This document shows, piece after piece, positions 1-61,396 of a stretch of DNA of 64,000 bases; position 1 is the stretch's first letter; every line of letters starts with the position of its first letter. The position numbers and the translations under genes were made by a program. Where the stretch lies: the NCBI GenBank assembly GCA_963691705.1, contig OY829540.1:3610001-3674000 (forward strand), in the 5' to 3' direction. This stretch comes from Viola odorata. Its lineage: Eukaryota; Streptophyta; Magnoliopsida; Malpighiales; Violaceae. The notes under the pieces are model-generated. The model did no database searches. It was not told the origin of the DNA and saw only the letters and a program-made list of their open reading frames with translations.

Positions 1-20
1 CCTACAAAACAAGTGACCTT

Positions 21-32
21 GCTCCGCTACCA
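21..32 (-). other. primer-binding site of the SIRE-like element
   Basis: The minus strand reads TGGTAGCGGAGC two bases after the LTR end. It resembles the initiator-tRNA-Met site TGGTATCAGAGC with changes in the middle. The same 12 bases follow the LTR of the unrelated palindromic element at 33442-33453, which supports its being a real primer site. Confidence 0.6.
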
Positions 33-34
33 AT

Positions 35-30721: not shown

Positions 30722-31497
30722 GCCAATTTCTCTCTGTTCTAGGAGCTGGGAACTTTTGCTTGATTCATGTCAGCCTAGTATCGGTATGAATGTTGTAGGT
30801 GAACAGGTAAACTTTCTTCTGCACTTTAATTAAAAAATTGCAAAGTTTTATCACTTAAATGTTTTTGATTTACTCCGTGCAGAAAACGAAACCAACCCAA
30901 CATAGTGTTCGGGAGCTTAGAGGCTGCTTAGGTTTGACACCAAATATTTTAGCTTGCCGCAGCACATTGGTACTGCTCTCGTTTCTTTCATTTGGAAACA
31001 CACTTGTGCTTGCTTCAGATTTATATGTTAGAAACCGGCCATTTTGCAGGCACTTGATGAGAATGTGAAGCTTAAATAGTTTCGATTCTGCCATGTTCCG
31101 ATGATTATAAACTTTTTTTTGTGTGCTACGCGAAAATATACTCATCTAATTTAAACGATCATTGAAGAAAATGTGTTTTCCAGGAACAAAATATTGTTAG
31201 TCTTTATGATGTTCCCAACATCTGGCACATTCCCTTAGTTTTAAGAGTAAGTACTACTAGTTCAACTTCTGAATTTCTTTCTTGATATATGGTCTGAGTC
31301 TTATATCTAATTAGATGTTGTCATGTTGATGTGTTTCTTTTTTATCAGGAGCAAAAAACTCATGAGGCAATTCTAAGAGAGTTGAATCTTAGGTTCGTGT
31401 AATTAGCTCAATCCGCAATGCACCATACAGCATCTTTCTTTTTTTCCCTTCTTTAGAGGTTTAAAAGTTGTACACGTTTAAAGGTTGTACACGTTCC

Positions 31498-32101
31498 TGA
31501 TAATACAAAAGTATATCACAAGGGCACAACGGACATTGTACCTTCACAAAGTACCGTTGACCAGTCAAAACGGCACATGACCGGTTTGACCAAGTCAAAC
31601 ATATGAAACGGCATCGTGACCGATTGACCAAGTCAACGGGAATAAGTGACCAAAGGACAAGTCTATCCCGATCGCCTCAAAACGGCACGAAGCCGATCCA
31701 CTCGCTAAGCTGTGAAGAAACGGATCGACACCTCTTCAAACATTGACCAGGTCAATGTTCTCCAAACGGCAGCATGCTGATTCCACACAACGGCAGTGTG
31801 CCGATTCGCTATAAACGGCACCTTGCCGATTCGGTATAAACGACTTAAAGCCTACAATAAAGGTACACTGTATGCTATTTCTATTAAATCAGTGGTCAAA
31901 GCCACACATGGGAGACAGCATTTCCTGCTCCCACTCAACCATTATAAAACTATTACCCATAGGGAATGTTTATCCTCCAAAAGGTATGGTCTCTACTTTA
32001 TGTTTATTAACTCTTACTTTTGAACCACTTTGTGGAAAAAAGAGGAAAGGTGTCAGTAGATCTAACCACTCCAACCACTCTAGTCCTACATAAGGACTAG
32101 A
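31498..32101 (+). repeat. left LTR of the TR-GAG element, part 1
   Basis: The first 604 bp of the LTR. It is interrupted after CTAGA by the palindromic insertion and resumes at 36155-36372; 604 + 218 = 822 bp, exactly the length of the right LTR. It carries several AACGGCA-x-GCCGATT motifs, three of them at a 24-bp period (31765-31830). Confidence 0.95.
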
Positions 32102-35100
32102 TGATACGATCCTAACCCCGAGGCTAGCCCTAGCGCACGCACAACACGCACACGCCTTGCGGCCAAGACCAATCAATCCAAAGCATCGAGCCAAAGACGT
32201 CATGAAGCAATTGGTGAGGTTTATACAACCTCTACATATGGATACAAGTCAAGAGACGTTGCTGGATCAAGCAATTAGACGAAGGATGACATGGATGGTA
32301 GCTTGGAAGTGTCTATCCCACACATTCGTGTCCACACAAGTAAACGAATGGAATTACGGCTTCAATCAGAGATCCATCACATGTACAAGACCTATTGGTG
32401 TCTTAGGAAGGTCGTGGCCAGGTTTGAGGACATTCGGACGAGTAAATCGTAAGATGGCTCATGGTGACATTCTAGCTGTCAAGGAGATGACGCTAATGTG
32501 AAACCAGTGATTGTGTTGGGATGTTTTCGGACCAATACAAGTCCGAATCTTGCGAGTCATATCAAATATGAAACCTCTGGATGTTTTCTACATTGTGACA
32601 AAGTTTCAGCCAATTCTACCAAGTAAATTGGGAGAAACGGCCATTTCAGTTCACACACCTAAAGTAGGCGAAGTTAGGCGGAGTTAGGCACCGACCACGG
32701 AAACGACCACCGACCAAAATGACGACCAAACCGCGTTTAACAGTAAAAATATAAAAGTTTCTTCTGTGTCTTTTCTACATTGTGTAAAAATTTCAGATCA
32801 AAAGTCCGAGCCATTTGAGAGAAACGGATCAGTCAATATCACCGGCCAAAGTTAGACACATAGTGACACCAACTTGCAACTTTGCGCCTTGAGCCTTTCA
32901 GACTTGGAGACTTGATCCGAATGCTATCCTAGATGTATTATTGTGTGTCTTTTATTACCTAGAACATGTGTGTATTTTATTTGACACGTTTTGGTCAAAT
33001 GTAAGTATGAAGGCATTTAGCCTAGTGTGAAGGCGTTTAGCCTAGTGTGGGGCATGTTTGCCTATATAAGGAGCCTTTGGTGCTCATAATAATAGATAGC
33101 TTATGATTTGTGATTTTAGACTATGTCTTAAAGAGAGAGTATCTCTAAATGTTCATGCGTGAACCTTGTCTTGTCTTGAGTCCGAACACTCGATGCAAAT
33201 GCAAGTAAAACCCGAAAGTTCATCCTTGATTCGTTTCCCCTAGGTTGGTTCTCACAGGTTGAGTTCAGGTTTAGAATCCGAGTCAAGAACCTCACTTGAA
33301 ATCGATTAGGTTGGTTGACACAGGTTGTCCTCAGGTCTAAGCTCGTACTTGTTGAGTTTATCTTCCGCAATCGAAATCCAATCCTTCGAACTAGATCACA
33401 TTGAAAGAATACGCGTCCTATGCAACTAGGATCGTATCAGTTGGTAGCGGAGCTAAGGCGTTCAAGGTTTGGTAACTATCCAATCTATCCTTTACTATTT
33501 TTATTTGTTTTCAATTGTTGAGATTGATTTTCGTTCTACCCTATCTAATCAATCTCCTTGCAGCCAAGTGTGTTAATGTGTCAAGTCGATCTAGAGTTCT
33601 AGATCAAGTTTGCATCTTTGTGTGTGCAAATCATTGTGCGATTTGTAGTGTCTTTCAAATACAAAAATCTGTCCCCAAAGTGTCAAGAAAAAGAGTCTTA
33701 AAAAAAAAAAAATACAAAGTGTCTTTATTTTAATTGTTATTTGATTTCATTTAAAAGAGTCAAAAATATAAAATATAAAAAAAAATGATTTCTGATACGA
33801 AATAGAAGAGAAGTATTCAAAACAGAAAAGAAAAGAAAATACAGAGTACTTCAAGATGTTAGCTTTGTAGAGCAAAAAGAATCATTCAATTTGGTGGTCG
33901 GAGTTGAAAGTTATCAACTTTGCAAGACACAAACCCGAATTCGCACATACACACTTACACAATCTTTGTGAATTATTTGAGTCTTCTATTGAGTTTTGAG
34001 CTTTTCCTTGATTCTGAATTCATATTTGTTCTACTCCAGTCTAATAAATTGATTAGTTGTTTGTTCTTTGCGGCCAAGACCAATCAATCCAAAGCGTCAA
34101 GCCAAAGACGTCATGAATCAATTGGTGAGGTTTATACAACCTCTACATATGGATATGAGACAAGAGAGGTTGCTGGATCAAGCAATTAGACGAAGGATGA
34201 CATGGATGTTAGCTTGGAAGTGTCTATCCCACACATTCGTGTCCACACAAGTAAACGATATAGAAGACTCAAATAATTCACAAAGATTGTGTAAGTGTGT
34301 ATGTGCGAATTCGGGTTTGTGTCTTGCAAAGTTGATAACTTTCAACTCCGACCACCAAATTGAATGATTCTTTTTGCTCTACAAAGCTAACATCTTGAAG
34401 TACTCTGTATTTTCTTTTCTTTTCTGTTTTGAATACTTCTCTTCTATTTCGTATCAGAAATCATTTTTTTTTTATATTTTATATTTTTGACTCTTTTAAA
34501 TGAAATCAAATAACAATTAAAATAAAGACACTTTGTATTTTTTTTTTTTTTAAGACTCTTTTTCTTGACACTTTGGGGACAGATTTTTGTATTTGAAAGA
34601 CACTACAAATCGCACAATGATTTGCACACACAAAGATGCAAACTTGATCTAGAACTCTAGATCGACTTGACACATTAACACACTTGGCTGCAAGGAGATT
34701 GATTAGATAGGGTAGAACAAAAATCAATCTCAACAATTGAAAACAAATAAAAATAGTAAAGGATAGATTGGATAGTTACCAAACCTTGAACGCCTTAGCT
34801 CCGCTACCAACTGATACGATCCTAGTTGCATAGGACGCGTATTCTTTCAATGTGATCTAGTTCGAAGGATTGGATTTCGATTGCGGAAGATAAACTCAAC
34901 AAGTACGAGCTTAGACCTGAGGACAACCTGTGTCAACCAACCTAATCGATTTCAAGTGAGGTTCTTGACTCGGATTCTAAACCTGAACTCAACCTGTGAG
35001 AACCAACCTAGGGGAAACGAATCAAGGATGAACTTTCGGGTTTTACTTGCATTTGCATCGAGTGTTCGGACTCAAGACAAGACAAGGTTCACGCATGAAC

Positions 35101-36149
35101 ATTTAGAGATACTCTCTCTTTAAGACATAGTCTAAAATCACAAATCATAAGCTATCTATTATTATGAGCACCAAAGGCTCCTTATATAGGCAAACATGCC
35201 CCACACTAGGCTAAACGCCTTCACACTAGGCTAAATGCCTTCATACTTACATTTGACCAAAACGTGTCAAATAAAATACACACATGTTCTAGGTAATAAA
35301 AGACACACAATAATACATCTAGGATAGCATTCGGATCAAGTCTCCAAGTCTGAAAGGCTCAAGGCGCAAAGTTGCAAGTTGGTGTCACTATGTGTCTAAC
35401 TTTGGCCGGTGATATTGACTGATCCGTTTCTCTCAAATGGCTCGGACTTTTGATCTGAAATTTTTACACAATGTAGAAAAGACACAGACGAAACTTTTAT
35501 ATTTTTACTGTTAAACGCGGTTTGGTCGTCATTTTGGTCGGTGGTCGTTTCCGTGGTCGGTGCCTAACTCCGCCTAACTTCGCCTACTTTAGGTGTGTGA
35601 ACTGAAATGGCCGTTTCTCCCAATTTACTTGGTAGAATTGGTTGAAACTTTGTCACAATGTAGAAAACATCCAGAGGTTTCATATTTGATATGACTCGCA
35701 AGATTCGGACTTGTATTGGTCCGAAAACATCCCAACACAATCACTGGTTTCACATTAGCGTCATCTCCTTGACAGCTAGAATGTCACCATGAGCCATCTT
35801 ACGATTTACTCGTCCGAATGTCCTCAAACCTGGCCACGACCTTCCTAAGACACCAATAGGTCTTGTACATGTGATGGATCTCTGATTGAAGCCGTAATTC
35901 CATTCGTTTACTTGTGTGGACACGAATGTGTGGGATAGACACTTCCAAGCTACCATCCATGTCATCCTTCGTCTAATTGCTTGATCCAGCAACGTCTCTT
36001 GACTTGTATCCATATGTAGAGGTTGTATAAACCTCACCAATTGCTTCATGACGTCTTTGGCTCGATGCTTTGGATTGATTGGTCTTGGCCGCAAGGCGTG
36101 TGCGTGTTGTGCGTGCGCTAGGGCTAGCCTCGGGGTTAGGATCGTATCA
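32102..36149. mobile_element. palindromic LTR-retrotransposon insertion (two head-to-head LTR-PBS-leader arms, 4,048 bp)
   Basis: The insertion is flanked by the 5-bp duplication CTAGA (32097-32101 and 36150-36154) and begins TGATACGATCCTAA, ending in its reverse complement. The left arm 32102-33989 is the inverted copy of 36149-34260 with only a few differences seen (near 32609 and 32762, and an A/T run of 13 versus 14). Each arm is a complete 1,338-bp LTR (32102-33439; 36149-34812), a primer site TGGTAGCGGAGC (33442-33453; 34798-34809 on the minus strand) and about 550 bp of leader. The loop (33990-34259) is unpaired. Both outer ends are U3 ends, unlike a normal element. No pol or gag is present. 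A read-through transcript could form a stem of about 1.9 kb. Confidence 0.92.
34069..34256 (+). repeat. third, diverged copy of an LTR segment inside the palindrome loop
   Basis: This segment matches 32157-32346 of the left LTR in the same orientation with roughly ten scattered differences (for example AAAGCGTCAAGCC versus AAAGCATCGAGCC, ATGAATCAATT versus ATGAAGCAATT). It is therefore older than the arm duplication and was not formed with it. Confidence 0.85.
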
Positions 36150-36154
36150 CTAGA

Positions 36155-36372
36155 GGGAGAGAGAGGAAGGACAGATCTGGAGCTCCCAAAAAGAGACAGA
36201 CACTGTTCCGATATACATTCTCTGCATCTTAATCCAAACACTGACTTTGGCATTGGAGATTCTCCGCCGGAGCAAGCCTCCGGTGGTTTTGCAGGTCGCT
36301 CAAGGGGCTCCGACCACACTCCCCGGCATGCCATTAGACGGAAAAGCCCTCCCATCCTTCTTTGGATTATCA
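36155..36372 (+). repeat. left LTR of the TR-GAG element, part 2
   Basis: The remaining 218 bp, ending ATTATCA. It is followed by AA and the primer-site-like sequence. It matches 42280-42497 with one visible difference (CTCCGCCGG versus CTCCGTCGG). Confidence 0.95.
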
Positions 36373-36470
36373 AATGGTGCTTTCATTGAGAGCTTTTGAA
36401 GTTTCAAGTGAGCAAGCCTTGAGATTCAAAGCTCTTTCTTCTCAATAATTTGGGGTTTTCATTTCCAAAG

Positions 36471-37613
36471 ATGGCGTCCAATCAAAATTTTCAATTAAAT
36501 CAACCTGCTGGTGCTGCTGCTGATCAACGTGGATCACCACCGGTGCAAACTTCATCTCCTCATGTGGGACTGAACACCACGGTTCAACAACCTAATTTTC
36601 CAGAAATCCCATGTCCAGGCGCAACCTCAGAGGTCATTGAATCAGCCATCATGCTCGAGTTTGCTGCCCTGCACCAAAGGATGAACGTGATGATGCAAAC
36701 GTTCATAGGAGGAGTTCCTCCGCCAGTCAACCAGCCAGTTGTTCCTCAACGGATCTACCATCAACAGGCAGTAGAACCATCTTTGGAGCCACCACCAGGC
36801 CATCAAAGTGCAGATCTACCCAGAAGGGAAGACATAGAAGAATTCGTCAATCAAATAGCTCAGCGCAGCGCAAGAAGGAGTCCTGAACAATCATCTCGAA
36901 GTAGATCCGAGAAAAGGAGAAACAGAGAGAGATCGGTAACTCCACATCAAACCAGGAGAGATCGTGACAGAGGTAATCCAGATCTGTTTAGACGGTCTGT
37001 TCAGAAACCAGATCGCGAAGAACAGGACGATGATCCAAGAAATCCGTTAACCCTTCGGGTTCGGAAACATCAAGTGAGCAGGCATGTCAAGCTACCATCC
37101 GATCACTACCATGGGACAACAGATCCGACGGTTCATGTGAGTTTAGTAAAGAAACATGTTAAGTTTTTTACTAGAAAGGATGAGGCTTTGTGCCAAATAT
37201 TTGTAATAACCCTTAAAGGGATAGCCGACACTTGGTTTGAAAAGCTACCAGCCGGATCCGTTGACTGTTTCGAGCAACTAGAAAAAGCATTCAGAAGCCG
37301 ATTCAGCTCATTAATACCGACGGAGAAATCTTCAGCCGTTCTGTTTGACATGATGCGACGGTCAGGGGAATCGTTGGCTGCATACGTGGCTAGATTTAGC
37401 ACAGAGCTAGCAACTCTTCCTGATGTAGCACCCAATCTTGCAGCAGAGGCGCTGAAAAGAAATTGTAAATATCGAGAATTGGAGAATGCTCTGATTGCAG
37501 ACACTCCTAAAACCTTAGATCTTTTGCGGATTGAGGTGGAAAAATATTCCAGAATGGAAGAAGCAGACTACCAAAGGAGGAAACGGGAGGAACCCGATCT
37601 CCAGAGTGCATAA
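36471..37613 (+). CDS. gag polyprotein of the TR-GAG element
   Basis: Intact 380-aa ORF. The frame is open from a TTG at 36450, but the first ATG, in good context (AAAGATGGCG), is 36471. The N-terminal part is Gln/Pro-rich, then Arg/Ser-rich. From about residue 195 to 360 lies a retrotransposon Gag domain: KLPSDHYHGTTDPTVHV, FVITLKGIADTWFEKLP, FEQLEKAFRSRFSS, ESLAAYVARFSTELATLP. This is the pattern of Ty3/Tat-lineage Gag, which builds the particle that packages the RNA. No CCHC zinc knuckle follows; the frame ends ...REEPDLQSA, so the nucleocapsid part is missing along with pol. It could be mobilised only by another element's enzymes. Confidence 0.85.
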   Translation: MASNQNFQLNQPAGAAADQRGSPPVQTSSPHVGLNTTVQQPNFPEIPCPGATSEVIESAIMLEFAALHQRMNVMMQTFIGGVPPPVNQPVVPQRIYHQQAVEPSLEPPPGHQSADLPRREDIEEFVNQIAQRSARRSPEQSSRSRSEKRRNRERSVTPHQTRRDRDRGNPDLFRRSVQKPDREEQDDDPRNPLTLRVRKHQVSRHVKLPSDHYHGTTDPTVHVSLVKKHVKFFTRKDEALCQIFVITLKGIADTWFEKLPAGSVDCFEQLEKAFRSRFSSLIPTEKSSAVLFDMMRRSGESLAAYVARFSTELATLPDVAPNLAAEALKRNCKYRELENALIADTPKTLDLLRIEVEKYSRMEEADYQRRKREEPDLQSA

Positions 37614-38031
37614 AAGAAGCAAACGGCAGAAAGCCGATGTGCAGATTGGTCAGCCGATTTCCCTTCAATGCCGTTGTCTAGATCAGAGGAGGAAACGGCA
37701 ATATTCTCAAAGCGGCCTAAGTGCCGAATGACCTCAAACGGTTCAGTCAAAACGGCATCAAGCCGAATCGTCAAAACAGAGATAAGTCCAAATTGCTTTA
37801 TCTTTGTGAAAGTTTCTGGAATATTATGTATGACATGAATTATCAAATATTCCCAAGCAATGAAAAATGTATATTTGCTAGTATTGTTTCTCATATGATT
37901 GCAGATCTCGAGAAAACAAAAAACAAATCAGCCGCGGACGTAAGTCATCTTAGACCGAACCGCGTTATCAAAATCAAATCAATCGTGGACGTAAGTCATT
38001 TTAGGCTGAACCACGTCACCAAAATCCAAGA

Positions 38032-38247
38032 ATTGCCAACGATACATATATTGCAAACGATACATATATTGCAAACAATACATATATTGCAAACGATACA
38101 TATATTGCCAACGATACATATATCGCCACCAAGGCATATATCGTTATTGAGGCATATATCGCTATTGATGCATATATCGCTATTGATGCATATATCGCTA
38201 TTGATGCATATATCGTTATTGATGCATATATCGTCATCAAGGCATAT
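38032..38247. repeat. 18-bp minisatellite, 12 units
   Basis: Units of the form ATTGCAAACGATACATAT (first five) grade into ATCGCTATTGATGCATAT (last seven). Every unit is exactly 18 bp, so the array is open in several frames. It lies between gag and the antisense ORF of the TR-GAG element. Confidence 0.95.
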
Positions 38248-38688
38248 ATACATTGTCATCACATAAAGACCATGCTGGTCATGCTGATCAGACAGACTGC
38301 AAAATTACAAAGTCCGCTCCAAAACGGCAAAGATACAAGGTCCGTTGCAAGCGGCAAATTTTCAAAGACATCTTCTGCCTTATCAACCGGCAAAATTGTC
38401 AAAACGGCCCAGTGCCAAATCGACAAAGAGGCCAAGTCAAAACGGTTGCAAACCTCAAAACGGCCATAACAGAACGGCAAGCGCCCGATTCTGCTAAACA
38501 AAAAGAGATAAGTTCAATTTCAATTGTTCTATCTTTGTCTTTATTTTTCTGGAGTATGATATATATGTAACATAAATCATTAAACAGTAGCAATTACTAA
38601 AAATTGCAAAATTATATATATATTCCGAATGATAATTGTTCATTACAAAATGAGCCAAATCGGCATTAACCAAAACATTGCTAGATGT

Positions 38689-41052
38689 TCATACTAACGG
38701 CCCAGATCCAGAAGCGGCGTTAGGGCCAACAGGAGCATCATCATCATCTTCGTCTACATCTGAATCGGAGAAAGGTTCATACTCCTTAGCTTCGGCAATC
38801 CTTTCTCCAGCAGCAACATATCGCGAGAGATTGTCCGGGTGGAAATTCTTCTCGCCATAATAGGAGACATAGCTCTCCAACATGATGTTCTTCATCCTCT
38901 CTCTCCACCAACCGATCTTCTCAGGAACTTTCAGTAGCTCTGCTTCCTTAATGGCAATGTCATTTCTGGCAGCTTGCAAATCGGATCGGGTTGCGCTAAG
39001 TTCCTCAGTTAGCTTGGCAACGGAATCGGCAAGAGAAGCTTTCTCTCCCGAGAGCAAGGCGACGGAATCGGATAGAGCAGTTTTCTCCTCCAGCAGCTCA
39101 CCGTTTCTCCTCTGCTCATCCCTGACCATGGCAGAAAGACCATCTCTTTCTTTTAGGCTGTCAGCCAGCCTGCTTCGAGCATCCATAACGGCTTTTTTGT
39201 CCGTCTCATGAGAGGCCTTCAAAGTCTCATTCTCTTTCTGAAGGGAAGCGACTTCAGCGGTTGATTGCCGAAGTGCCTCTCTGCCCTTTTCAAGCTTTAA
39301 CTCAACGGCCTCAGCTGCGTAACGAGTAGCGCACAAGCCGCTGTAGAAAATACTTTGCATATGGGAGAAATGGCAACTCAGCTCCAAACGGTGATAATGT
39401 TTCCTGTCGGCATCGTTGGCAAGCATCTCACCAATCAGTTGACCGGTCCTATAATCTTTGCTGCCAGGACTCTTCAATCCGAGAGATCGGCGGCAGCTTT
39501 CTCCAAAATTGTTTAAGCTAACCGTGTGAGTAATCTCCCCGTCAGGACCATGACTTGAGAAATAACCTCTATGAACGGAAGGAGGAGCGACTGCATGATC
39601 ATCAGAAGTAAACGGCTCAGGCAAAGGTGGACCGGCAACCCAGTGCAGGTTAATCGGCATCGGCGATGAAGGACCTGGCTGAACTGGATCAGGAACGCTC
39701 CTGGAAGCGACCGATTTGCCCGCGAAAACGGGAGAGTGATGCTGTAACGACGTCTCCAAAGGGGGAGCCGAAGCCCCTGAGCCATCAGGGCAAGCAGGAA
39801 AAGGAATGTTTGGAGCAGGCCTTGAAACGGTTTCAGCCGTTTTGATATTCTCTGGTTCGGAAACGGCGGATGCCCGTTGTGCTTCGTCGGCAGCCCGTTT
39901 TGCTTCAGCTTTCCTTCTCTTTCTGAGAATTCTTTTGGCAGCTTTCAGGACTTGGGGATCAGGATCTGCCAGATCGGAGGTCTCAACCGTCTTGCTGACC
40001 CGTCGCCGTTTGATGATAAGAGGGGAATCTTCTTCTTCTTCTTCTTCTTCATCGAACGCAAAATTCACCGTTGTGTCTGGTATAGCCGATCGCTCACCTC
40101 TCTCCTCAACGGCCTCTTCGGCCACCATTCCCTCATCAATCGGCTCATTGACCAGGGGACCTTCATCCTCAGTTCGGTCTTCAGCCGATTCATCATCAGT
40201 CTGCATTCTGTCTTCGGCAGGAGCTTTGGCCTTAGCAGAAATCAGCCGAATTGAAGAAATGGAAGCAGAAACAACCTTCTTAGCTTTCTTAGCCTTCCCT
40301 GCAAAACGGAATTTGTGTAAGAATACAACAAGGACAAAGCGGAATATGGCTGGAGTTAGTAAAAGCTCACCAAGAACGCAATCAGACAACGGCACGCCGA
40401 TTGCCAGGTACCGTGTGTGGAACGGCGTGTTAACCGACAGCAACAGGTCAGCTTGGGATTGAAGAGTCTCACCAAGGTTATCTGGCTTGAGCCAGTGTCT
40501 CTCATTCATTTCCCGATTGAACCCAGAAGTCCATTCGGCCGAAGAAGATGATGACACCAAAAAGAAACGTTCTTTCCAATCCTTGACAGAAGAGTCATAC
40601 CTTTGGAAGATCTCGTTAAAATGAGAATCCCGACGGGGGCGAATCATCATCAAGCTCCCACGGTTTGTCAGATTGAAGAAAAACTTAAAAAGGGTCAGCG
40701 AAGGCGATTTGATCCCGTTCAACTCGCAGACCTTAAGGAAAGCATAAATGCCAGCCCAGGAATTCGGAGTAATCTGGGCTGGGTTCAGCAGATGCTGGGT
40801 CAACAAAGCTTTGACCATAGAATCAAGGGGAAGCTTAAAACCAAAATCAAACATCCTTGAGTATAAAACCCTAGTGTTATCTTCAAAGCTACTGTTTAAC
40901 CTAACATCGGGAGAAGCAACAATGGCAGAATACTCATCAGTCAGCTCAATCTCTAAAGCCTCCATCTCAGCATACAACTTGTCTTCACTATCTAACTTAG
41001 TGGGAGTTCTATCAATGATCTCATCAGTAACTAGAGGGCGTTTGGGTGCCAT
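38689..41052 (-). CDS. large antisense ORF of the TR-GAG element, putative plant 'gypsy-type transposon' protein with coiled coil
   Basis: Intact 787-aa ORF on the strand opposite to gag. Start context AGGAATGGCACCC is good. Residues ~60-240 resemble the plant domain known as Transposase_28 / putative gypsy-type transposon protein (SPDVRLNSSFEDNTRVLYSR; the ...WAGIYAFLKVCELNGIKSPSLTLFKFFF... region). The middle is acidic with KR-rich nuclear-signal-like blocks (IIKRRRVSK, RILRKRRKAEAKR). Residues ~565-720 form a long coiled coil. The tail is acidic. Minus-strand bases 40370-40299 form a 72-nt in-frame intron candidate (GTGAGC...TACTAAC...TTTTGCAG). Its function is unknown; antisense ORFs of this sort are described in Tat-lineage elements. 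Confidence 0.75.
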   Translation of the reverse strand: MAPKRPLVTDEIIDRTPTKLDSEDKLYAEMEALEIELTDEYSAIVASPDVRLNSSFEDNTRVLYSRMFDFGFKLPLDSMVKALLTQHLLNPAQITPNSWAGIYAFLKVCELNGIKSPSLTLFKFFFNLTNRGSLMMIRPRRDSHFNEIFQRYDSSVKDWKERFFLVSSSSSAEWTSGFNREMNERHWLKPDNLGETLQSQADLLLSVNTPFHTRYLAIGVPLSDCVLGELLLTPAIFRFVLVVFLHKFRFAGKAKKAKKVVSASISSIRLISAKAKAPAEDRMQTDDESAEDRTEDEGPLVNEPIDEGMVAEEAVEERGERSAIPDTTVNFAFDEEEEEEEDSPLIIKRRRVSKTVETSDLADPDPQVLKAAKRILRKRRKAEAKRAADEAQRASAVSEPENIKTAETVSRPAPNIPFPACPDGSGASAPPLETSLQHHSPVFAGKSVASRSVPDPVQPGPSSPMPINLHWVAGPPLPEPFTSDDHAVAPPSVHRGYFSSHGPDGEITHTVSLNNFGESCRRSLGLKSPGSKDYRTGQLIGEMLANDADRKHYHRLELSCHFSHMQSIFYSGLCATRYAAEAVELKLEKGREALRQSTAEVASLQKENETLKASHETDKKAVMDARSRLADSLKERDGLSAMVRDEQRRNGELLEEKTALSDSVALLSGEKASLADSVAKLTEELSATRSDLQAARNDIAIKEAELLKVPEKIGWWRERMKNIMLESYVSYYGEKNFHPDNLSRYVAAGERIAEAKEYEPFSDSDVDEDDDDAPVGPNAASGSGPLV

Positions 41053-41675
41053 TCCTAAGTCTCAAGCAACAAAACAGAGGAAAAAGGAGTGGGTAAATAC
41101 CTAAAAATGCAGAGGTCTTGAAGAGCGGAACCCAGAAGTGCGGGAGGAAGTTGCAGAAATGAGAGAGAAAATAAGAGAAAATCTGTGAGGAAGAAGAAAG
41201 TGAGAGCGGCGTTGAGAAAGAAAATGAGTTAGGGTTTCCAAGAGAAACCACTTTTGAAAAGAGAAGACTCTTCAACTCACATCCGTTCCAGCGAAATGAT
41301 GACAAGTGGCAGGACCAATCGTGATCAGACTGACACACGTCACTAAAGCTGCAGAACATTAAATGAGAAAACGGCGCATGCGCTTCTCACAAGTTTTGAA
41401 TTTCGAAATTCAAACTTGTCAGAGAGCGAAGAGACGTTTCTCCTAGAAAGTTCAACCAGCAATTATCATTTTATAGGAAAATGCCACGTCAATAGGTATG
41501 CATTTAAATGCATTAATCCTTCTTTATTGACATTTATTATTTATTTGCAGGATTGAGGGAAAAAACTCAATAACTGCATCAAAGTAAAACAAACGGTAGC
41601 ACGCCGATTATCAAATATCAAGCCAGAAACGGCAAGCCCTTGGTAAACACTCGGGCTCGTTTGTTGTTGGGCCTC

Positions 41676-42497
41676 TGATAATACAAAAGTATATCACAAG
41701 GGCACAACGGACATTGTACCTTCACAAAGTACCGTTGACCAGTCAAAACGGCACATGACCGGTTTGACCAAGTCAAACATATGAAACGGCATCGTGACCG
41801 ATTGACCAAGTCAACGGGAATAAGTGACCAAAGGACAAGTCTAGCCCGATCGCCTCAAAACGGCACGAAGCCGATCCACTCGCTAAGCTGTGAAGAAACG
41901 GATCGACACCTCTTCAAACATTGACCAGGTCAATGTTCTCCAAACGGCAGCATGCCGATTCCACACAACGGCAGTGTGCCGATTCGCTATAAACGGCACC
42001 TTGCCGATTCGGTATAAACGACTTAAAGCCTACAATAAAGGTACACTGTATGCTATTTCTATTAAATCAGTGGTCAAAGCCACACATGGGAGACAGCATT
42101 TCCTGCTCCCACTCAACCATTATAAAACTATTACCCATAGGGAATGTTTATCCTCCAAAAGGTATGGTCTCTACTTTATGTTTATTAACTCTTACTTTTG
42201 AACCACTTTGTGGAAAAAAGAGGAAAGGTGTCAGTAGATCTAACCACTCCAACCACTCTAGTCCTACATAAGGACTAGAGGGAGAGAGAGGAAGGACAGA
42301 TCTGGAGCTCCCAAAAAGAGACAGACACTGTTCCGATATACATTCTCTGCATCTTAATCCAAACACTGACTTTGGCATTGGAGATTCTCCGTCGGAGCAA
42401 GCCTCCGGTGGTTTTGCAGGTCGCTCAAGGGGCTCCGACCACACTCCCCGGCATGCCATTAGACGGAAAAGCCCTCCCATCCTTCTTTGGATTATCA
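41676..42497 (+). repeat. right LTR of the TR-GAG element
   Basis: Uninterrupted 822-bp copy. It shows the pre-insertion sequence AAGGACTAGAGGGAG at the point where the palindrome entered the left LTR. Confidence 0.97.
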
Positions 42498-44345
42498 GTT
42501 CCCTTTTTGTGACGTTTATCTTATAATTGTGCATCACAACTAGAGAGCCTACTTTACAGGATTGGACTTATAGAGCTAAAATCTGTGACAAGGATTCGGT
42601 TGGTTTAAGCAGATCGATTTAAGTTGAGTGATAAGAGATTCTCAATATTTTCTACTCAGAAGTTTGACTTTTAAACCTCAATTTACAGGTTCGCATTGCA
42701 ATGGTTGGAAAGTATAGAGGCCTTACGGATTCTTACCTCTCTCTAATAAATGCTCTTTTGGATGCATCTTTTTTTCTCGGCAAAAAACTGGTTGTGAATT
42801 GGGTTATAGCGAGTGACCTTGAGGATGAGACAGCGAGAGAGGTAACTGATTAAGCCTCGTCTTTTTACCTTCTTCATTTTTTGCATATTGACATAAATTC
42901 TATTAATCCTTCCAGAATCCTGATGCCTACAAGGCTGCATGGAAGTTGTTAAAGGTCTGTATTCATTTTGTTCTCCTATATTCTTTTTGAGGTAACTTTA
43001 TTTGGTGGTTAGTCATCTAACTTGCTCTAACTTCAGAGTGCGGATGGGGTTCTTGTCCCAGGAGGGTTTGGTGCCAGAGGTGTTCAGGGGAAAATTCGTT
43101 CAGCCAAGTATGCTCGACTGAACAGAATCCCATTTCTTGGCATCTGTCTAGGAATGCAAACTGCAGTTATCGAGTTTGCACGATCTGTTCTTGGTCTGCC
43201 AGATGCTAACAGCACAGAATTCGATCCTGACACCAAGAATCCTTGCGTTATATTCATGCCAGAGGTTTTCAACCATTCTCTTGAATTTGGACCCCATTGA
43301 ATCCTAGTTGGTTTTGAAAGTTTCTCTTTCTCTAATTAGTGTTGTATATATATTTACATTTTTCAATAGGGCTAAAAAACACATATGGGAGCCACCATGC
43401 GTCTTGGAGTAAGGAGGACATATTTCCAAGTCAGGGATTGCAAATCTGCAAAGTTGTAAGTAGTCGTAGTCCTTTGCTCTGATAAGTGACATTATTTACA
43501 GATGTCTATAATTGGCACATACTAACTCATCTTTGTTTTCATCAGATATGGTAATAGAGGCTTTGCTGATGAGAGACATCGGCACAGATACGAGGTCTGA
43601 AGAATAACTGCATCAGCATCTATTTATCTATCTATATATGTTGAAATTGCGAGCAACTATTTTCTCAGAACTATCAGGTCTTATCTTATGCAGGTGCATC
43701 CAGAAATTGTAGCGAACCTGGAAGAGGCCGGACTTTCATTCACTGGCACGGATGTAAGCACTAAACGCATGGAGGTATGGCTCTGCGATTGTCTTCTTGT
43801 TGATACCCAAATTTTGACGCCAGCAGTTTAAATCATTTTCAAAACTTAGTATATCAGCATTTTTATCACTCTGTCATGTTATTAACATTTTAATCGATCA
43901 AATGTGAGTAGGTTAGAAGAAAGAGAAAAAAGCTCTCAAATTTTCCTATCGAGTTTATGATCTCGATCTTCCAGCCTAGGTGGTAGAGGTCTTCCTCATC
44001 AAATCAGTGGCTTCAAGTAAGTCTTTTCGCTTTATTAAATTGAATTTTAATTTTTGGTTCTAAATCTTTCATCCTTTCATCCTTTGATTTAATTTAGATT
44101 CCTATACTAATTTTAAATCCCACCTCTTATCCTCATTTACTGCACTTTGATTTCTACCATCCTTCTTTATCCGTTAAATTGAATTTGAATGTTAATGAGT
44201 CCCACCTAAACTAATCTACCAAGAAGCCTAATCATATCTGATGACTATAGATTTTCTTAAACGTACAAAACTGTATATTCTACCTCCAAACCTCTCCTTT
44301 TTTCTATCTCTCTGTCAAATGTTCACTCGCTTCTTCCTTAAGAGA

Positions 44346-45536: not shown

Positions 45537-48500
45537 CTTTTCGAAGTTAATAGGATTAGAGCTCCCAAACTTAATTTTCTTGTCTGAAATAAAATTGTAC
45601 GCGCACGAATTTCAAAAATTCAATAATAAATGGTCTTTTCCTTATGTTCATGTCGTTGATTGTGAGGGTGACACTAGAAGAGGAGGTCTAGCCTTATTGT
45701 GTAGAAATGATATTTCCGTTAATATCTTGCGTAGTGATGCTCACTGTATTGATATTGAACTCCTGAATGGTTTGTCTAACGGCCCCCCCTAGGAGATTTA
45801 CTGGCATCTATGGTTGGCCAACTAGGGCAGATAAATACAAGACTTGGGATATGATTAGGGATATAAGAGATATGAGCCCATTCTCATGGCTTTGTGTTGG
45901 GGATTTTAATGAAGTCATGTGGGGTCATGAGAAACTTAGGGGCTCAGCAAGACAGTTCAATGATATGGATGAATTTCGGTGCGCCCTTGACCACTGTGAT
46001 CTTATAGACCTTGGTTTTTCAGGGCCAAAATTTACCTGGTGTAACAACCAAAGAGGCAACGACACTATCATGGAGAGACTAGATAGAGGGACGGCAAACG
46101 AGAAGTGGATGAGTTGCTTCCCCGATGCCACTGTTAAACACCTCCCCCGCTTCAGATCTGACCACTGCCCTATCCTGATTCAGCTGACCCCTAGGGTCGA
46201 TAGATCTCCGAGAGGGAAAGTCTTTCGTTTCGAGGCTGCCTGGCTCAGGGATGAGTCATGTTTCGACCTTTTTAAAAGGTTGTGGGTTGGGGGAGTGATT
46301 CAGACAAATGGGGACTCACTAGATAACCGATTAGTACGTTGCGGGGTAGAGTTGTCATGCTAGAGTAAGGAGGTATTTGGTAATGTGCACAGGTCCATTG
46401 TGCAGAAGAGAGAGCATCTGGGATGGCTCCAGAGGCAACCAAGTTCAGACTCCACCCTTGATGAGATTGAGAAAGTTGGAAAAGAAGTTGAGGAGCTCAT
46501 CCATCGAGATGAGGTGATGTGGAAACAACGGTCACGAGTCCTATGGCTCGAAGAAGGAGATAGGAACACAAAATTCTTCCATGCCAGGCCTTCACAACGT
46601 AAGAAAAAGAATACAATTGAGAGAATCCAAGACGAGTCGGGTCGGTGGAGGGAGTCTCGTGAGGAAGTAGTGGGGATAGTCCTAGATTATTATAAGACTC
46701 TATTCTCTTCTGGTGGAAGCGACCGATCCTCAAATGTCCTACATTCCATAAACCCCCGTGTGTCCCACTCCATGAATTTTAATCTTGATCGAATTTTCAC
46801 TAAAGATGAAGTTTTTAAAGCTCTTAAACAGATGCATCCCACGAAGGCCCTCGGGCCGGACGGAATGCCTCCTTTGTTTTTTCAAAATTTTTGGTCTTTT
46901 TTAGAAAATCCTGTTTGCAAAGCTGTCCTTGGAATCCTGAATGATGGGGAAGACCCTGCCTACCTCAACCATACCTTTATCACCCTCATTCCTAAAATAG
47001 AAAACCCCTCAAATTGCTCCCAGTTTCGCCCGATTAGCTTGTGTAATGTAGTCTTCAAGCTAATAACCAAAGTTCTTGCAAATCGCCTGAAACAAATCCT
47101 GCCTAGCATAGTATCAGAGAATCAAAGCGCCTTTGTTCCAGGCAGACTCATAACCGACAATGCTCTAATTGCCCAAGAGATCTTCCATGGGATGAACTCA
47201 AAACGCACGGGTCCAGGATGGATGAGCGTCAAGCTAGATATGAGTAAGGCCTATGACAGAGTGGAGTGGAACTTCTTGGAGGCAATCATGACCCGCATGG
47301 GCTTCTCACCTAGATGGACATCTTTGGTGATGCGATGTGTCTCAACGGTCTCCTACGCCATCCTCCTTAATGGGGCCCCGGGACCTACGTTCTATCCAAA
47401 AAGGGGCCTCCGGCAGGGGGATCCGTTGTCCCCTTATCTCTTCGTGTTATGTGCAGAGGGCCTTTCAGCGACGCTTCAGAATGCAACCGCGACCAACAGG
47501 ATACATGGATACAAGGTATGCCCGGGCAGCCCACAGGTCAGCCATCTGTTCTATGCAGATGATAGCCTCATTTTTGCGAAAGCAGAGGATGAGGAGGCCA
47601 CAGTCATTAGCTCCATTCTGAAGGACTATGAGAAAGCATCTGGCCAGAAAGTAAATTTAGCGAAGTCAGAAGTTTACTTCAGCAAGAACGTGGGCCACGG
47701 TGCTAAAATTCTGGTAAAAGAAAGACTAGCAATGGTGGAGACAGAATCCCATGCCAGGTACTTGGGACTTCCAGTGTCTTTTGGCCGATCGAAGAAAGAG
47801 ATGTTCGCTCCGATCTGAGACAGGATCTACAAGAGGCTAGGAGGGTGGAAAGAGAAAAAGCTATCCCAGGCAGGGGGAGATGTTTTAATTAAATCAGTCA
47901 TCCAGTCCATCCCAACGTATATGATGAGTTGTTTTGAGATCCCAATCTCCATTTGCGAGGACATAGAAAAGGCGACAAGGAGATTCTGGTGGGGGGAAAA
48001 TTCTGAGGAGCGAAAGATGCACTGGGTGTCTTGGGAAAAGCTTTACCGGTCGAAGGATGTGGGAGGACTGGGTTTCCGGAAGGTTAGAGAATTTAATCTT
48101 GCTCTTTTAGCCAAGCAAGGACGGCGGCTCCACAAAAATCCAAACTCTTTGCTCTCCCAGATTTGGAAAGCGCGATACTTTCCCTATTCGGACTTTCTAG
48201 AGGCAGGGATGGGCTCCCGCCCTAGTTACGTGTGGCATAGCACTCTGGCAGGAAGATCAGCTCTCCATAAAGGATGCATCTAGAGGGTAGAGAATGGTGA
48301 ACGGATCCGAATTTGGAAAGTCTCGTGGCTTCCGACAATAGTGACTGGGATGATCACAACACCAGTCACAGGCCTCGATGAGGAGGCTACAGTGGCTGAG
48401 CTTATTGACAGGGACCGGAGGTGCTGGAAGACAGACCTTGTGGAACAACTTTTTCTACCACAGGAAATATCAACAATATTAAGCCTACCGCTTAGTCGGA

Positions 48501-49579
48501 GTGAGGCGAATGATACTCTTGTGTGGAAAGGTACTACAAATGGGAAGTATTCAGTTCGTAGTGGATACCACTGTCTTACATCGGTTACTGCGCAGGAGTG
48601 CCCAGATTCCAGTAGAGGTTGGTGAAAATTCTTGTGGGGACTTTCTATCCCTCCAAAGTTCAAAAACTTCATATAGAGGCTGGGAAGTAACTCTCTCCCA
48701 ACTAGGGTGAACCTAGCTAGGAGGGGTGTATCGGTGGACCCCGTGTGCCCCTGTTGCAACGAGGAGATAGAATTGACTCCGCATCTGCTGCTGTCTTGCC
48801 CGTTTGCCAGGGAAGTGTGGGGAAAGTTTGCGTTCTGGGATAGGGTTTCGGGGCTGCAAGGAGATGACTGGGTGGATTGGCTAGCAGGGCTACGGACATC
48901 CCTGGATGACTAAGATATAGAGCAGCTCATCTCCATCCTTTGGTCCCTATGGACATCGAGGAATAACAGGATCTTCCGCCAGTGCGATGAATCTATCCAA
49001 GAGGTGGTTATGAGGGGTGGAAAATTACTGTCTGATTTCCAGGAGGCATGGAGTCAGCACCACAGGCCCGCTGCCCCGCCTCCCCGACCAGTCAACCCAA
49101 GATGGGTGCCTCCTCCTACAGGGGTGGTAAAGGTGAACACGGATGCAGCGGTGGGGACTATGGGCATTGGTTTGGGATTTATAGCCCGGGATGCAAAGGG
49201 TGAAACAGTGTTCTCAGGAGCAATCTACCTTCCGCATGGAGCTGAGGTGCGAACAGCAGAGGCTCTAGCGCTGAGAGACGCAGTAACACAGGCTCGCCAG
49301 TGGGGATACGACAAGATTATAGTTGAGTCTGACTGCTTGCAGAACGTCCTCGCCCTGACCAATGGGGACTTCCCATTAAGCTACGCGGGATTGGTGTTGG
49401 AAGAGGTGGCACGCCTAGCTTCTACTTTTCATAGCTGCTCCTTTTCGCATACAGGACGGTCCACGAATATCCCAGCACATGAGTTAGGCCAATTGGCTTT
49501 GATTTCCGGTTTAGGAAATGTATGGATAGGGGAATGCCCCGAGGTGATCGCACCTTTTGTACTTGCAGATCTAAATTAA
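45481..49579 (+). pseudogene. LINE ORF2 (endonuclease, reverse transcriptase, RNase H), decayed
   Basis: Starts MSLLFWNCRGLGNPQ, the usual L1 endonuclease opening; VGDFNEVMWGHEK and RSDHCPILIQL follow. Reverse transcriptase blocks: RPISLCNVVFKLITKVLANR, SVKLDMSKAYDRVEW, RGLRQGDPLSPYLF and the catalytic FYADDSLIF. Then GGDVLIKSVIQSIPTYMM, the zinc-binding region (CPCCNEEIE...HLLLSC) and a plant RNase H-like domain (VKVNTDAAVG, AEALALRDA, VESDCLQNV, NIPAHELGQLA). Damage: one extra C in the run at 45783-45789 shifts the frame; stops at 46361 TAG, 47816 TGA, 48281 TAG, 48623 TGA, 48674 TAG and 48911 TAA. Several lie where family members have Trp. Confidence 0.88.
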
Positions 49580-57257: not shown

Positions 57258-58570
57258 TTAGTTCTAAAGGAATAATATTCATTCATCTTGTTGGCATAAC
57301 CCATTGTCATCTCTGTACTTATGTAAAATAGGGTTGCAAATAGCTCAAACCATGGAGGCAGTTTCACGTGCAAACTGAAGGCTAAAACTTCAATACCATC
57401 AGGGCAGCTTGAAGTTAATCTTATTCATCAAGCCGGTCCATCTCTTTTTAGTATGCAGTAGTTGAGTTTGGGAAAGACTTCTTGGAGGCTGTTAAGTGAG
57501 CAAAATTTGTTGAAATTGACCACAGAGATGTTTTTAGTTCTTCCTCCTGTATGAGGATGACCAGACCAAGAAGGAGATTTTGTGGTACAATGCCGGTGAG
57601 TTTGCATTCTGGATATTTCAGTACCGGAGGCTGATGATGGATGCTGTACTTCCGGGGTGAAAAGATTGAAGCTTTTTGCAGAGGAGACTCTGTTTCTCAT
57701 CTTCCTAGTCAGTAATTAGGAATGTTAACTGTTAGCTCGGCTTTCACTCTCAGTGTTGCAGTGTAATCTTGCAATTTCCCAGGATAAAAACATGGAGCTT
57801 TGGCATCTTATTGTAGAAATTTAAATCTTACATGGTCTCAGTGTTGATATTTTTTCCCTTCAGAGTTGCACTCAGTTATTTGTGAATTGCTGTCGGGATT
57901 CATTTTTGTAACCATTCTATCTGTCAGCAATAAAAATTCGAAATCAAATTTTGTCTTCACCGATTTGTTTCTCTGGATATTTGTTTCTCTTTCCTTGAAA
58001 TTCCTTTTACTGGAGATAGATGCTGCTATATTTACAGCTTGACAGTTTTTTTCTTATGTTTCCTTGTTCTTTAAGTCAACTGAAGAACCAATTTTTTTCT
58101 GGTCATTTTGTTGAAAAAAAAGCCTTTTATATATATTTGAAGCTGTAGTGTTCTGCTTTTCTTTATTTTGGTGGCATTAAACAACATTCCATTTTTGCCT
58201 ACCATTTACTTTTCCAACCTAGTACTCAAGACTTTCAACATTTGCCAACTTTACAAGCTGATTAGTCAGAGACATCCAAATATATAAACCAAAAATCAAC
58301 TTTTGAAATCTCTTGCTGCAACTTTTGGATTGCAAGACAAGCACAAGAAATCATAACAGTAATAGTAATAATCATAACAACCAAAGAAAAAAAACTACAT
58401 ATTGCTTACTTTAACTCAGATTACAAGGCCTATTCTCAACAGAATTTGCAGAAGCAAATCATCTAATTCTCTGCAATCCAGCAGAAAGAATGAACGAATT
58501 CGCAACAAAAGATATCAAGTACTAATTCTACTGACAAAATTGTGCATTTACATCACAACTACTAGTTCAA
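57258..58570. other. intergenic DNA between the PPR and kinase genes
   Basis: Probably the 3' UTR of the PPR gene followed by AT-rich DNA. From about 58150 it belongs to the segment duplicated at about 61000. No other gene is seen. Confidence 0.4.
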
Positions 58571-60100
58571 CTATGCACCGGCAGGGATGCTGCAAAGTGG
58601 TGGAAACTTTGGCACCGTCTTTGATGAAACCTCTGCTAATGGCTTAAACGCATCTACATCCCCAGCAATTAATGCAGCGCTTGTCGTACTACTACCCTCT
58701 TCGGCATCAACTGACCAAGAAGAGACAGAGAAACCCTCCTCTGATGTGAAACTCCATTCGTCGGAAGAGCATGAAGCACTGCATTCATCCTCATCCACAT
58801 CATCATCAGCCTCAGACCATGCACCATACGCATCTGAAATTTCCAGTATTTCACCACAATCTTCTCCCTGCTTTACTCCGGATACGAAGGGATGGTCTAA
58901 CAGCATCTCAGCAGTCAACCTGAACATAGGTTTCCTCACTAAACACCCCTTCAAGAAATCCTTCCCTTCCTTCGATATCCCAGCAGGAATTTTAGGTAAT
59001 TCAAACCGATCACCGATCTTCCTCAAAAGCTCATCAGTGGTGAAATCATCCTTCAAGTCCCAAGCAGGCTTTCCGGTAAGCATCTCGAAAACAATACACC
59101 CTAGAGCCCATATGTCAGAAGGAGGCTCCTGCACATGATCGACTACTGTCTCCGGTGCCAAATACAAAGCAGTCCCTCTTAGGTAAGGATCAAACTTCCT
59201 CTTCTTATGGCTCTTCTCAGACTTCTTAGCCAACCCAAAATCCCCAATTTTCGGCACGAACTCACCAACACTCCCATCACCTCTCTTATTACTCCCCACA
59301 AGCAAGATATTCTCGGGCTTCAAATCGCAATGCACGTAACCTTCCCTATGAATATAATCAATCCCTTCAAGAATACACCTTGTGTATCTCCTAACATCCA
59401 ATTCAGGCAACCCAACACCATTAGATTTCTTGATAAGACCAGATAGGGTTCCACCACAAGCATACTCCAATAAAACATTATAAACCATCTCACCATCTTT
59501 GCTAATAGTTGTTTCCTCACCAAAACACTTTAAAATATAAGGACAGCCATTAAGAGAATTAAAAACCTCCTTCTCCTTCTGGAGAGAACCAGAAACAGAA
59601 ACCTCAGCGGATTTTACAGCCATAATAGAAGGGAAGCACCTGTTTCGTGACTTGGGATTCTTCAACTGTGCAAAATAAACAGACCCAAATCCTCCTTTTC
59701 CAATCAATGGACCTCTAAGCCATGCCACGCCATGATTGAATCCGGCTGCTGCTGCTTCTTCTTCTACTTCTTCTTCAAGTTGCTCTCCCTTTCTCTTCAT
59801 TGCTCCTTTTTTCCCTCTCTTCTCTAATGAAAACGGAACAATTTGTAAGCTACAGGTAATGCTTGAGGAAATTTTTGCTAGGGTTTTAGGAAACAGAAGA
59901 AGTTATTGAAGTTATAAAAAGGGAAAGAAAACGCGTGTATGAGAAAACCTGAGAGCACCGCACCTGGATTTGCTAATTTACTTGCGTGTTACAGGATAGC
60001 ACCAGGGAGAATAAATAATATACTATTACTATCACTGGGTCAATCGGTAAATGTTTGAACTTTTAAAACGATGCAGTTTTGACATTTCTGTACAAAATAA
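58150..60100. repeat. tandem segmental duplication, copy A
   Basis: Similar to about 61000-62885 over the kinase gene, its 3' flank (CTTTCAACATTTGC then ACTTTACAAGCTGATTAGTC) and its 5' flank (AATGTTTGAACTTTTAAAAC). The outer limits were judged by eye. Confidence 0.8.
58571..59800 (-). CDS. MAPKKK17/20-like protein kinase, tandem copy A
   Basis: Intact intronless 409-aa kinase. Glycine loop GKGGFGSVY (from residue 34), AVK lysine K63, catalytic loop HCDLKPEN with H157-C158-D159, DFG at 187-189, APE at 215-217, then TSDIWALGCIVFEMLTG-like subdomain IX (here PSDIWALGCIVFEMLTG) and a variable acidic/Ser-rich tail ending FPPLCSIPAGA. The GXGXXGXV, HCD and short C-terminal tail pattern is that of the small MEKK-like plant MAPKKKs (MAPKKK15-20), which feed ABA and stress MAP-kinase cascades. 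HCD in place of HRD is normal for that clade. Start ATG 59800 precedes a KRK-rich N-terminus shared by copy B. Confidence 0.9.
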   Translation of the reverse strand: MKRKGEQLEEEVEEEAAAAGFNHGVAWLRGPLIGKGGFGSVYFAQLKNPKSRNRCFPSIMAVKSAEVSVSGSLQKEKEVFNSLNGCPYILKCFGEETTISKDGEMVYNVLLEYACGGTLSGLIKKSNGVGLPELDVRRYTRCILEGIDYIHREGYVHCDLKPENILLVGSNKRGDGSVGEFVPKIGDFGLAKKSEKSHKKRKFDPYLRGTALYLAPETVVDHVQEPPSDIWALGCIVFEMLTGKPAWDLKDDFTTDELLRKIGDRFELPKIPAGISKEGKDFLKGCLVRKPMFRLTAEMLLDHPFVSGVKQGEDCGEILEISDAYGAWSEADDDVDEDECSASCSSDEWSFTSEEGFSVSSWSVDAEEGSSTTSAALIAGDVDAFKPLAEVSSKTVPKFPPLCSIPAGA

Positions 60101-61396
60101 TTAATTTAATACTGTAGGGTTACACTTGATGTGTGATATAATTCATAATTCTAATTTATTAGCTCCTGTCACTCTTAAATTGGGAAATAATTTCTTTATT
60201 AAACAGCCACTTAATTCCACAATAAAGTTAGCAAAAGTGAATTTTTTTTGCGAAAACATTAAATTATTGCTTGTTTGAGATTTTTACTCTTTATATATTT
60301 TTTATAAAGAAGTTCCTGATAAGCTCAAGTACTAAGATATGCGCATGAAAAAATTGGGCCCAAAAAAAATGGACCAAACCAAATAATTGGGATCCAAAAA
60401 AGAGATTAAAGCCCAAAATTACATAGATACCAACCGAACCCAACCTCCAAAATCTCAAGAGATGAAGATTGAATGAAGTGCAATCAAAATCATTGTTGTA
60501 ATCAAATTCAGCGTGAAAGACTTCTACAGGATATCAGATAGCCAGGTCATTTATTCACAATCATATGTGGGTATTTTTCTATTGATACTTTTGCTCCAAA
60601 CAGTATTTGAAGCAGACTTTGAGCTCTTCTGCAGTGGTTGAATAATTGAGGTGCGCACTTAAGTATTGGACCGGGAAAATGAGGCAACGACGAGAGATTT
60701 CCATGAAAGACAGTGTTCATTGTTATTAATGACACTTGAAGTAGGAAATGCAGCAAAACTTGTAGGAACTGCCAACTATGTTCAGATTAGAGAACACTTA
60801 TACTATCATTGTTTCTTGTCGGTGTGTTCGTGTTCGTATTCTTGTATGACTAGAATAAGATTCAGTTAGCAAATTACTGCCAACTATCAAGTCTCATTTT
60901 CTTCTTTACTGTTCTTTTCTTGGATGACTTATCTTTTTCTGCTAAAAGTTGAATACATATTGAATATTCTTCTCAACATTTTTTTGACAGTAACCATTTT
61001 CTGTTCGGCTTTTCTCTATTTTGCTGGCAATAAACAAATCCATTTGCCTACCACTTGCTTTTCCAACCCTAAGACTTTCAACATTTGCAAACTTTACAAG
61101 CTGATTAGTCAAAACATCCAGCCCTAACTAACCTTCCAAATACATCACCAAAGATTAGCACCTTTGGGTCGCAAGACAAGCAGAAGAATCATAATAGTAG
61201 TTGTAATAATAATAATAATCGTAGAAGTAACAAAAATGTATATATTGCTTACTTTAACTGGGATTACAAGGCCTAGATTTGCACAAGCAAATCCTCTAAT
61301 TCTCTGCAATTTAGCAGAAAAAAATGAACGAATTCGAATGATACCAAGCACTAATTCTACTGACAAAATTGTGCATTTACATCACAACTAGTTCAA
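59801..61396. other. intergenic DNA between the two kinases
   Basis: Promoter side of copy A at the left. From about 61000 it belongs to copy B of the duplication. Nothing else is recognised between 60100 and 61000. Confidence 0.4.

Follow-up and report, generated by a model that had tools for sequence, protein, structure and literature searches.

A palindromic LTR-retrotransposon insertion in Viola odorata best read as carrying two U3 ends

Background

Insertions in which several retroelement copies are fused between a single pair of target-site duplications (TSDs) have been described in Triticeae, rice and maize (PMC1950507). In these template-switching complexes, exemplified by Angela in Triticeae, co-packaged RNAs are proposed to be fused and the product to be integrated once, leaving a 5-bp TSD; as described there, the complexes consist of direct repeats, with three LTRs, two internal regions and normal U3 and U5 ends. 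A related mixing of sequences is known from Onsen, in which co-packaged relatives recombine at a high rate and sequence of a diverged sibling enters the new copy, no inversion being reported in the main text, where the words "inverted" and "inversion" are absent (PMC5668417). Among the sources on tandem arrangements, PMC7215508 deals with tandem Cassandra arrays, and the parts of PMC11899658 devoted to tandem LTR elements contain nothing on inverted ones.

Inverted arrangements are represented by two maize systems. An inverted TRIM dimer of Zma-SMART, enclosed by one TSD pair, appears in the legend to Fig. 2 of PMC4717578, where it is named without a mechanism; it is made of small TRIM units, amounts to 559 bp by its coordinates, and belongs to structures that its authors checked by PCR and sequencing. 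Mu killer (Muk) is a duplicated and inverted part of the DNA transposon MuDR, its transcript is a 2.4 kb hairpin, and silencing by it has been shown (PMC2563033). Our search of the open-licence literature for inverted, palindromic or head-to-head LTRs with a target site duplication returned 0 papers.

Here we analyse a palindromic insertion in a window of 64,000 nucleotides of the Viola odorata genome (contig OY829540.1, positions 3,610,001 to 3,674,000). Like the maize inverted TRIM dimer, it holds inverted retroelement copies within one TSD pair; unlike the dimer, it has two 1.9-kb arms of LTR and leader, no second LTR in either arm, and a diverged piece of U3 at its centre. It shares with the template-switching complexes a single integration with a 5-bp TSD, whereas the strand is switched and both ends are U3 ends; with the Onsen recombinants it shares the sequence of a diverged sibling. 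The resemblance to Muk lies in the inverted duplication itself, the hairpin of the present insert being a predicted one. The first-pass annotation of this DNA knew of no named class for such a structure, which was nearly right, the exception being the figured and PCR-checked maize dimer (PMC4717578, Fig. 2 legend). The palindrome is thus a new form of known kinds of fused and inverted insertion, with LTR arms and two U3 ends. Checked against an empty site within the window, it documents an insertion of LTR-element DNA best read as carrying two U3 ends, as well as an inverted fusion with sequence from two family members.

Results

Structure of the insertion

Positions 32102-36149 form a near-perfect inverted repeat of 4,048 bp with CTAGA on either side (Table 1). 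Each arm comprises an LTR of 1,338 bp, a primer-site-like 12-mer next to it and then a leader, and the alignment of one arm to the other, over 1,888 columns, contained 3 mismatches plus two 1-nt differences in homopolymer length. The two outer ends of the insert are U3 ends of the same LTR. Its LTRs are mutually inverted, and neither an arrangement with U3 to the left and U5 to the right in direct orientation nor a junction of internal sequence to the start of a direct 3' LTR was found in it. The LTRs run from TG to CA and end in short inverted repeats, the 13-bp terminus being perfect at all four ends and common to the U3 and U5 ends of the palindrome LTR. This terminal 13-mer, TGATACGATCCTA, has 4 mismatch-free matches in the window, which are the four LTR ends, and 5 matches at up to 2 mismatches, against 1.20 expected in the window.

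The size of the insertion, its CTAGA duplication, the length of the LTR and of the 270-bp loop, the near identity of the inverted halves and the inverted repeats at the LTR ends had all been given by the first-pass annotation, and each agreed with our coordinates and alignments. Gene conversion between the arms is possible. As a separate observation, the U3 of the palindrome LTR contains a 34-nt motif twice (32576-32609 and 32763-32796, 187 nt apart, 82% alike).

Table 1. Positions, within the window, of the parts of the palindrome and of the host LTRs
Feature	Position	Strand	Remark
Host 5' LTR, portion left of the insert	31498..32101	+	2 mismatches/604 against the 3' LTR
TSD CTAGA, left copy	32097..32101	.	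unduplicated CTAGA in the host 3' LTR, 42275-42279
Left arm: LTR, primer site and leader	32102..33989	+	3 mismatches/1,888 columns against the right arm
Left LTR, TG...CA	32102..33439	+	ends in a perfect inverted repeat of 13 bp
TATATAA, putative promoter motif of the left LTR	33063..33069	+	motif only
Left leader/internal copy	33440..34067	+	78 nt longer than the right copy
Left primer-binding site, TGGTAGCGGAGC	33442..33453	+	2 mismatches against TGGTATCAGAGC
Palindrome centre, 270 nt	33990..34259	.	
Diverged partial U3, direct orientation, copy of 32157-32347	34068..34258	+	8/191 differences
Single extra T at the junction of the U3 piece and the inverted leader	34259..34259	+	
Right arm: inverted leader, primer site and LTR	34260..36149	-	arm-to-arm alignment
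Right-arm primer-binding site	34798..34809	-	
Right LTR, U3 end facing out	34812..36149	-	
TATATAA, mirror copy in the right LTR	35182-35188	-	motif only
TSD CTAGA, right copy	36150..36154	.	matches the left copy
Host 5' LTR, portion right of the insert	36150..36372	+	1 mismatch/223 against the 3' LTR
Host 3' LTR with empty insertion site	41676..42497	+	CTAGA once, 42275-42279

The empty site in the sister LTR

The insert sits within the 5' LTR of another LTR element, the host, which is young and has a TSD of its own, GTTCC, at 31493-31497 and 42498-42502. In the 3' LTR of the host the site is undisturbed and reads AAGGACTAGAGGGAG, with CTAGA once, so that the 5-bp duplication can be followed from one copy at the empty site to two around the insert. 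The difference in length between the disrupted and the intact LTR consists of the 4,048-bp insert and the second CTAGA, and the simplest reading of these sequences is that insert and duplication came in one event. The empty site in the sister LTR thus speaks strongly for a single insertion, and as strongly against a foldback misassembly of the simple kind. Together with the TSD and the common 13-bp termini, it gives good support to the earlier claim of one insertion of a U3-to-U3 palindrome.

Divergence per site is lower between the arms (3/1,888) than between the host LTRs (3/822 distinct positions, the 5-bp CTAGA being counted in both 5' pieces, of 604 and 223), small numbers in either case; this order is expected because the nesting of the one element in the other requires it. 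The target itself is an arm of a short perfect hairpin, a 10-bp CTCTAGTCCT / AGGACTAGAG with a 5-nt spacer in the intact LTR; it is found at 32079-32101 and 42256-42280, with the TSD inside the right hairpin arm.

The centre of the palindrome

The centre is leader only at 33990-34067, the continuation of the left leader, by which the inner ends of the arms come to lie 78 nt apart in leader coordinates (33989 versus 34067). The following 191 nt are instead a piece of U3 that differs from the left arm at 8/191 sites, at all 8 of which the right arm agrees with the left. Compared with the arm-to-arm rate of 3/1,888, this divergence is significant (Fisher p about 6e-7; Poisson 1.4e-9), which indicates that a second, diverged family member contributed; judging by these differences, the piece most likely derives from another family member and not from the element's own 3' LTR. 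At the right junction of the U3 piece the homology amounts to 0-3 nt, and a single T has been added. Near the presumed first switch point, a leader repeat (TTGCAGCCAAG, 33558-33568, against the junction TTGCGGCCAAG) was not significant, its score of 40 comparing with a mean of 27.6 and a maximum of 49 over 300 shuffles.

Identity of the element and search for relatives

The primer site TGGTATCAGAGC matches the initiator tRNA-Met. In the insert, the 12-mer TGGTAGCGGAGC begins 2 nt past the LTR and differs at 2/12 positions from TGGTATCAGAGC, the usual plant primer site (PMC2576258 gives an example). At the same tolerance the window contains 6 matches against 3.56 expected, and 17/100 shuffles reach 6; such matches are not rare, and the weight of the primer-site call lies in its position. 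The identical 12-mer is also found at the left edge of the window (32-21, - strand), where it follows what resembles the end of an LTR from an unrelated element, and this recurrence supports the reading of the 12-mer as a genuine primer site in this genome. The unrelated element is present in part at 1-1237 (- strand), where by reading its LTR may start near 1237.

No stop-to-stop ORF of at least 150 aa lies wholly within the insert, the ORF overlapping its right end (35750-36382, - strand) had no Pfam match at E 0.001, and a gag or pol coding region was not found in the insert. It thus looks non-autonomous.

When the left arm and centre (32102-34260) were compared by BLAST, at E up to 1, with positions 1-31497 and 36150-64000 of the window, a subject that includes the 3' host LTR and excludes 31498-32101, no other copy was found. 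Of the 7 short matches, one was to the shared primer-site region, at 17-39 (E 0.031); the other six, 15-35 nt long, had E 0.37. Exact patterns were also sought in two collections of viral and prokaryote DNA: the border of LTR and primer site had 0 matches in viral_contigs and 0 in genome_contigs, and the U3 pattern had 0 in viral_contigs, results that say little about plants.

Discussion

Origin of the palindrome

We favour, with a probability slightly below one half (about 0.47), an origin from an aberrant cDNA of a non-coding LTR retrotransposon that was integrated once through two U3 ends. The starting point would be a particle holding two related RNAs, in which plus-strand DNA was synthesised through U3, R, U5, primer site and leader. 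This strand would then have switched to the U3 template of a second family member, copied 191 nt of it, and jumped to a leader strand of plus sense, belonging either to itself or to its sister, on which it could run back to the exact U3 terminus. A further copying step would turn the product fully double-stranded, and integrase, to which U3 and U5 ends present an identical 13 bp, would join both U3 ends to the target 5 bp apart. A single master copy for both arms, the order of the template switches and the use made of integrase are what we infer from the final structure.

A plus-sense template switch has two consequences that agree with the insert: the far end would stop, by run-off, exactly at the U3 terminus, and the inner ends would be only 78 nt apart, as a local strand switch predicts. 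Precedents that favour this origin are the frequent recombination of co-packaged Onsen relatives (PMC5668417) and the fused insertions with a single TSD pair in Triticeae, rice and maize (PMC1950507). The weak point of this origin is that a fold-back is a hairpin with one free end, so that a two-ended duplex needs the extra copying step; in addition, the right junction, with its 0-3 nt of homology and extra T, is equally expected from end joining. The fold-back or template switch of a cDNA put forward in the first-pass annotation therefore stands as one of two good routes, with the amendments that a second template took part, as the diverged U3 piece indicates, and that a simple fold-back would yield a one-ended hairpin still to be converted into a two-ended duplex. 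Of the marks by which Sabot and Schulman recognise a template-switching complex, the insert has one TSD pair and near-identical outer LTRs; a third internal LTR and two collinear internal regions are absent from it, the centre holding the 191-bp U3 piece only and the internal regions being inverted.

The other good route starts from two cDNAs of one particle, which would have been brought into synapsis through their U3 ends and integrated as a pair, breaking the chromosome; the free inner ends would then have been trimmed and joined by the host, with the 191-bp U3 piece as filler from another member. Two separate donor molecules can serve in concerted integration. In vitro, retroviral integrase alone integrates the two viral ends of one long DNA in concert (PMC2615046). 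Such a course would produce a two-ended duplex without any extra copying, and the little homology and extra T at the right junction, together with the diverged templated filler, do resemble end joining; we nevertheless regard it as somewhat unlikely, given that the two inner ends would have to stop no more than 78 nt apart, through coincidence or because both stalled at one place, and that the arms must derive from the same or nearly identical masters (3/1,888 differences). Two diverged family members as the respective sources of the two arms are ruled out by this same figure. The palindrome might also have arisen after integration, if a normal element came first and the repair of a later break copied its 5' half backwards, the right end being rejoined through the 13-bp repeat, in which case integrase never used two U3 ends. 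The terminal repeat that this requires is present, and would keep both terminus and TSD. Against it, the central U3 is unlikely to be a remnant of the element's own 3' LTR (8/191 against 3/1,888 between the arms), and besides a foreign source of U3 two switches have to be made with precision, the later one right at the terminus, which makes a later rearrangement quite unlikely.

That the insert is no one-off but belongs to a replicating fold-back family, either a long-terminal-inverted-repeat transposon or a palindromic non-autonomous element, would suit its perfect ends, its TSD and the lack of any ORF of at least 150 aa wholly inside it. Each arm has, however, the anatomy of an LTR element (TG...CA, terminal repeat, TATA motif and primer site), and by our reasoning an RNA of the palindrome would be without a sense 3' R repeat and could not be copied by ordinary reverse transcription; we consider such a family highly improbable. 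Palindromic reads are a familiar sequencing artefact, and a fold-back read in the assembly or library could imitate a palindrome. In such a read the left flank would come back reversed on the right, whereas here the host LTR simply goes on past the insert, TSD included; the arms moreover differ at 3 sites, and an artefact is extremely unlikely. We reject chance and simple misassembly because of the TSD, the empty site and the difference between the flanks. A pair of nested or adjacent elements is rejected as well, since the insert contains no LTR pair in direct orientation and has a single TSD pair on its outside.

Promoters and predicted hairpin RNA

The putative promoters of the arms face each other, and a transcript from either would fold into a hairpin whose stem is about 0.9 kb. 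For the left one we took an RNA start at 33095, about 30 nt past TATATAA; folding of 33095-35156 gave -1671.6 kcal/mol, with 894/977 pairs on the palindrome axis. Alternative TATAAA motifs occur in the left arm at 32750, 33767 and 33774; for a start outside the insert, the host LTR has TATAAA motifs upstream of it at 31810, 31835 and 31943. According to this model, the locus, if transcribed, would form a hairpin RNA with a stem of about 0.9 kb from its own promoters and of about 1.9 kb from an outside one. The stem of about 1.9 kb announced by the first-pass annotation thus applies to a transcript started outside, and is to be shortened to about 0.9 kb for one started from the TATA motif of an arm, at the presumed start. 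Such an RNA could, as that annotation proposed, be a source of siRNAs against its own family.

Software that relies on direct LTR pairs probably misses insertions of this kind. A wider proposal, which we consider improbable, is that LTR-element reverse transcription in plants repeatedly yields U3-to-U3 palindromes as a by-product, that annotation based on direct LTR pairs has overlooked them, and that they silence their own families as hairpin "killers". If that were true, they would be a retrotransposon counterpart of Mu killer; if such insertions do recur, they would supply hairpin loci ready-made and, with them, a simple route to the trans-silencing of retrotransposon families.

Other features of the window

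The host LTR element (31498-42497) contains a gag ORF (PF03732) and a 790-aa antisense ORF matching PF04195, "putative gypsy type transposon". Between its LTRs lie five stop-to-stop ORFs of at least 150 aa, two of which were scanned, neither being pol, and on the evidence of these two of five the host may be non-autonomous. An 18-bp tandem repeat array is found inside it at 37996-38249. Further on, a LINE-like stretch (45767-49579) contains several ORFs of one direction, among them one that matches reverse transcriptase (PF00078, 46364-47815), the sole one scanned there. Finally, 58558-62880 holds a tandem duplicate of a protein-kinase-like gene, so called by reading, with copies about 2.8 kb apart that are 83-96% alike in six listed blocks.
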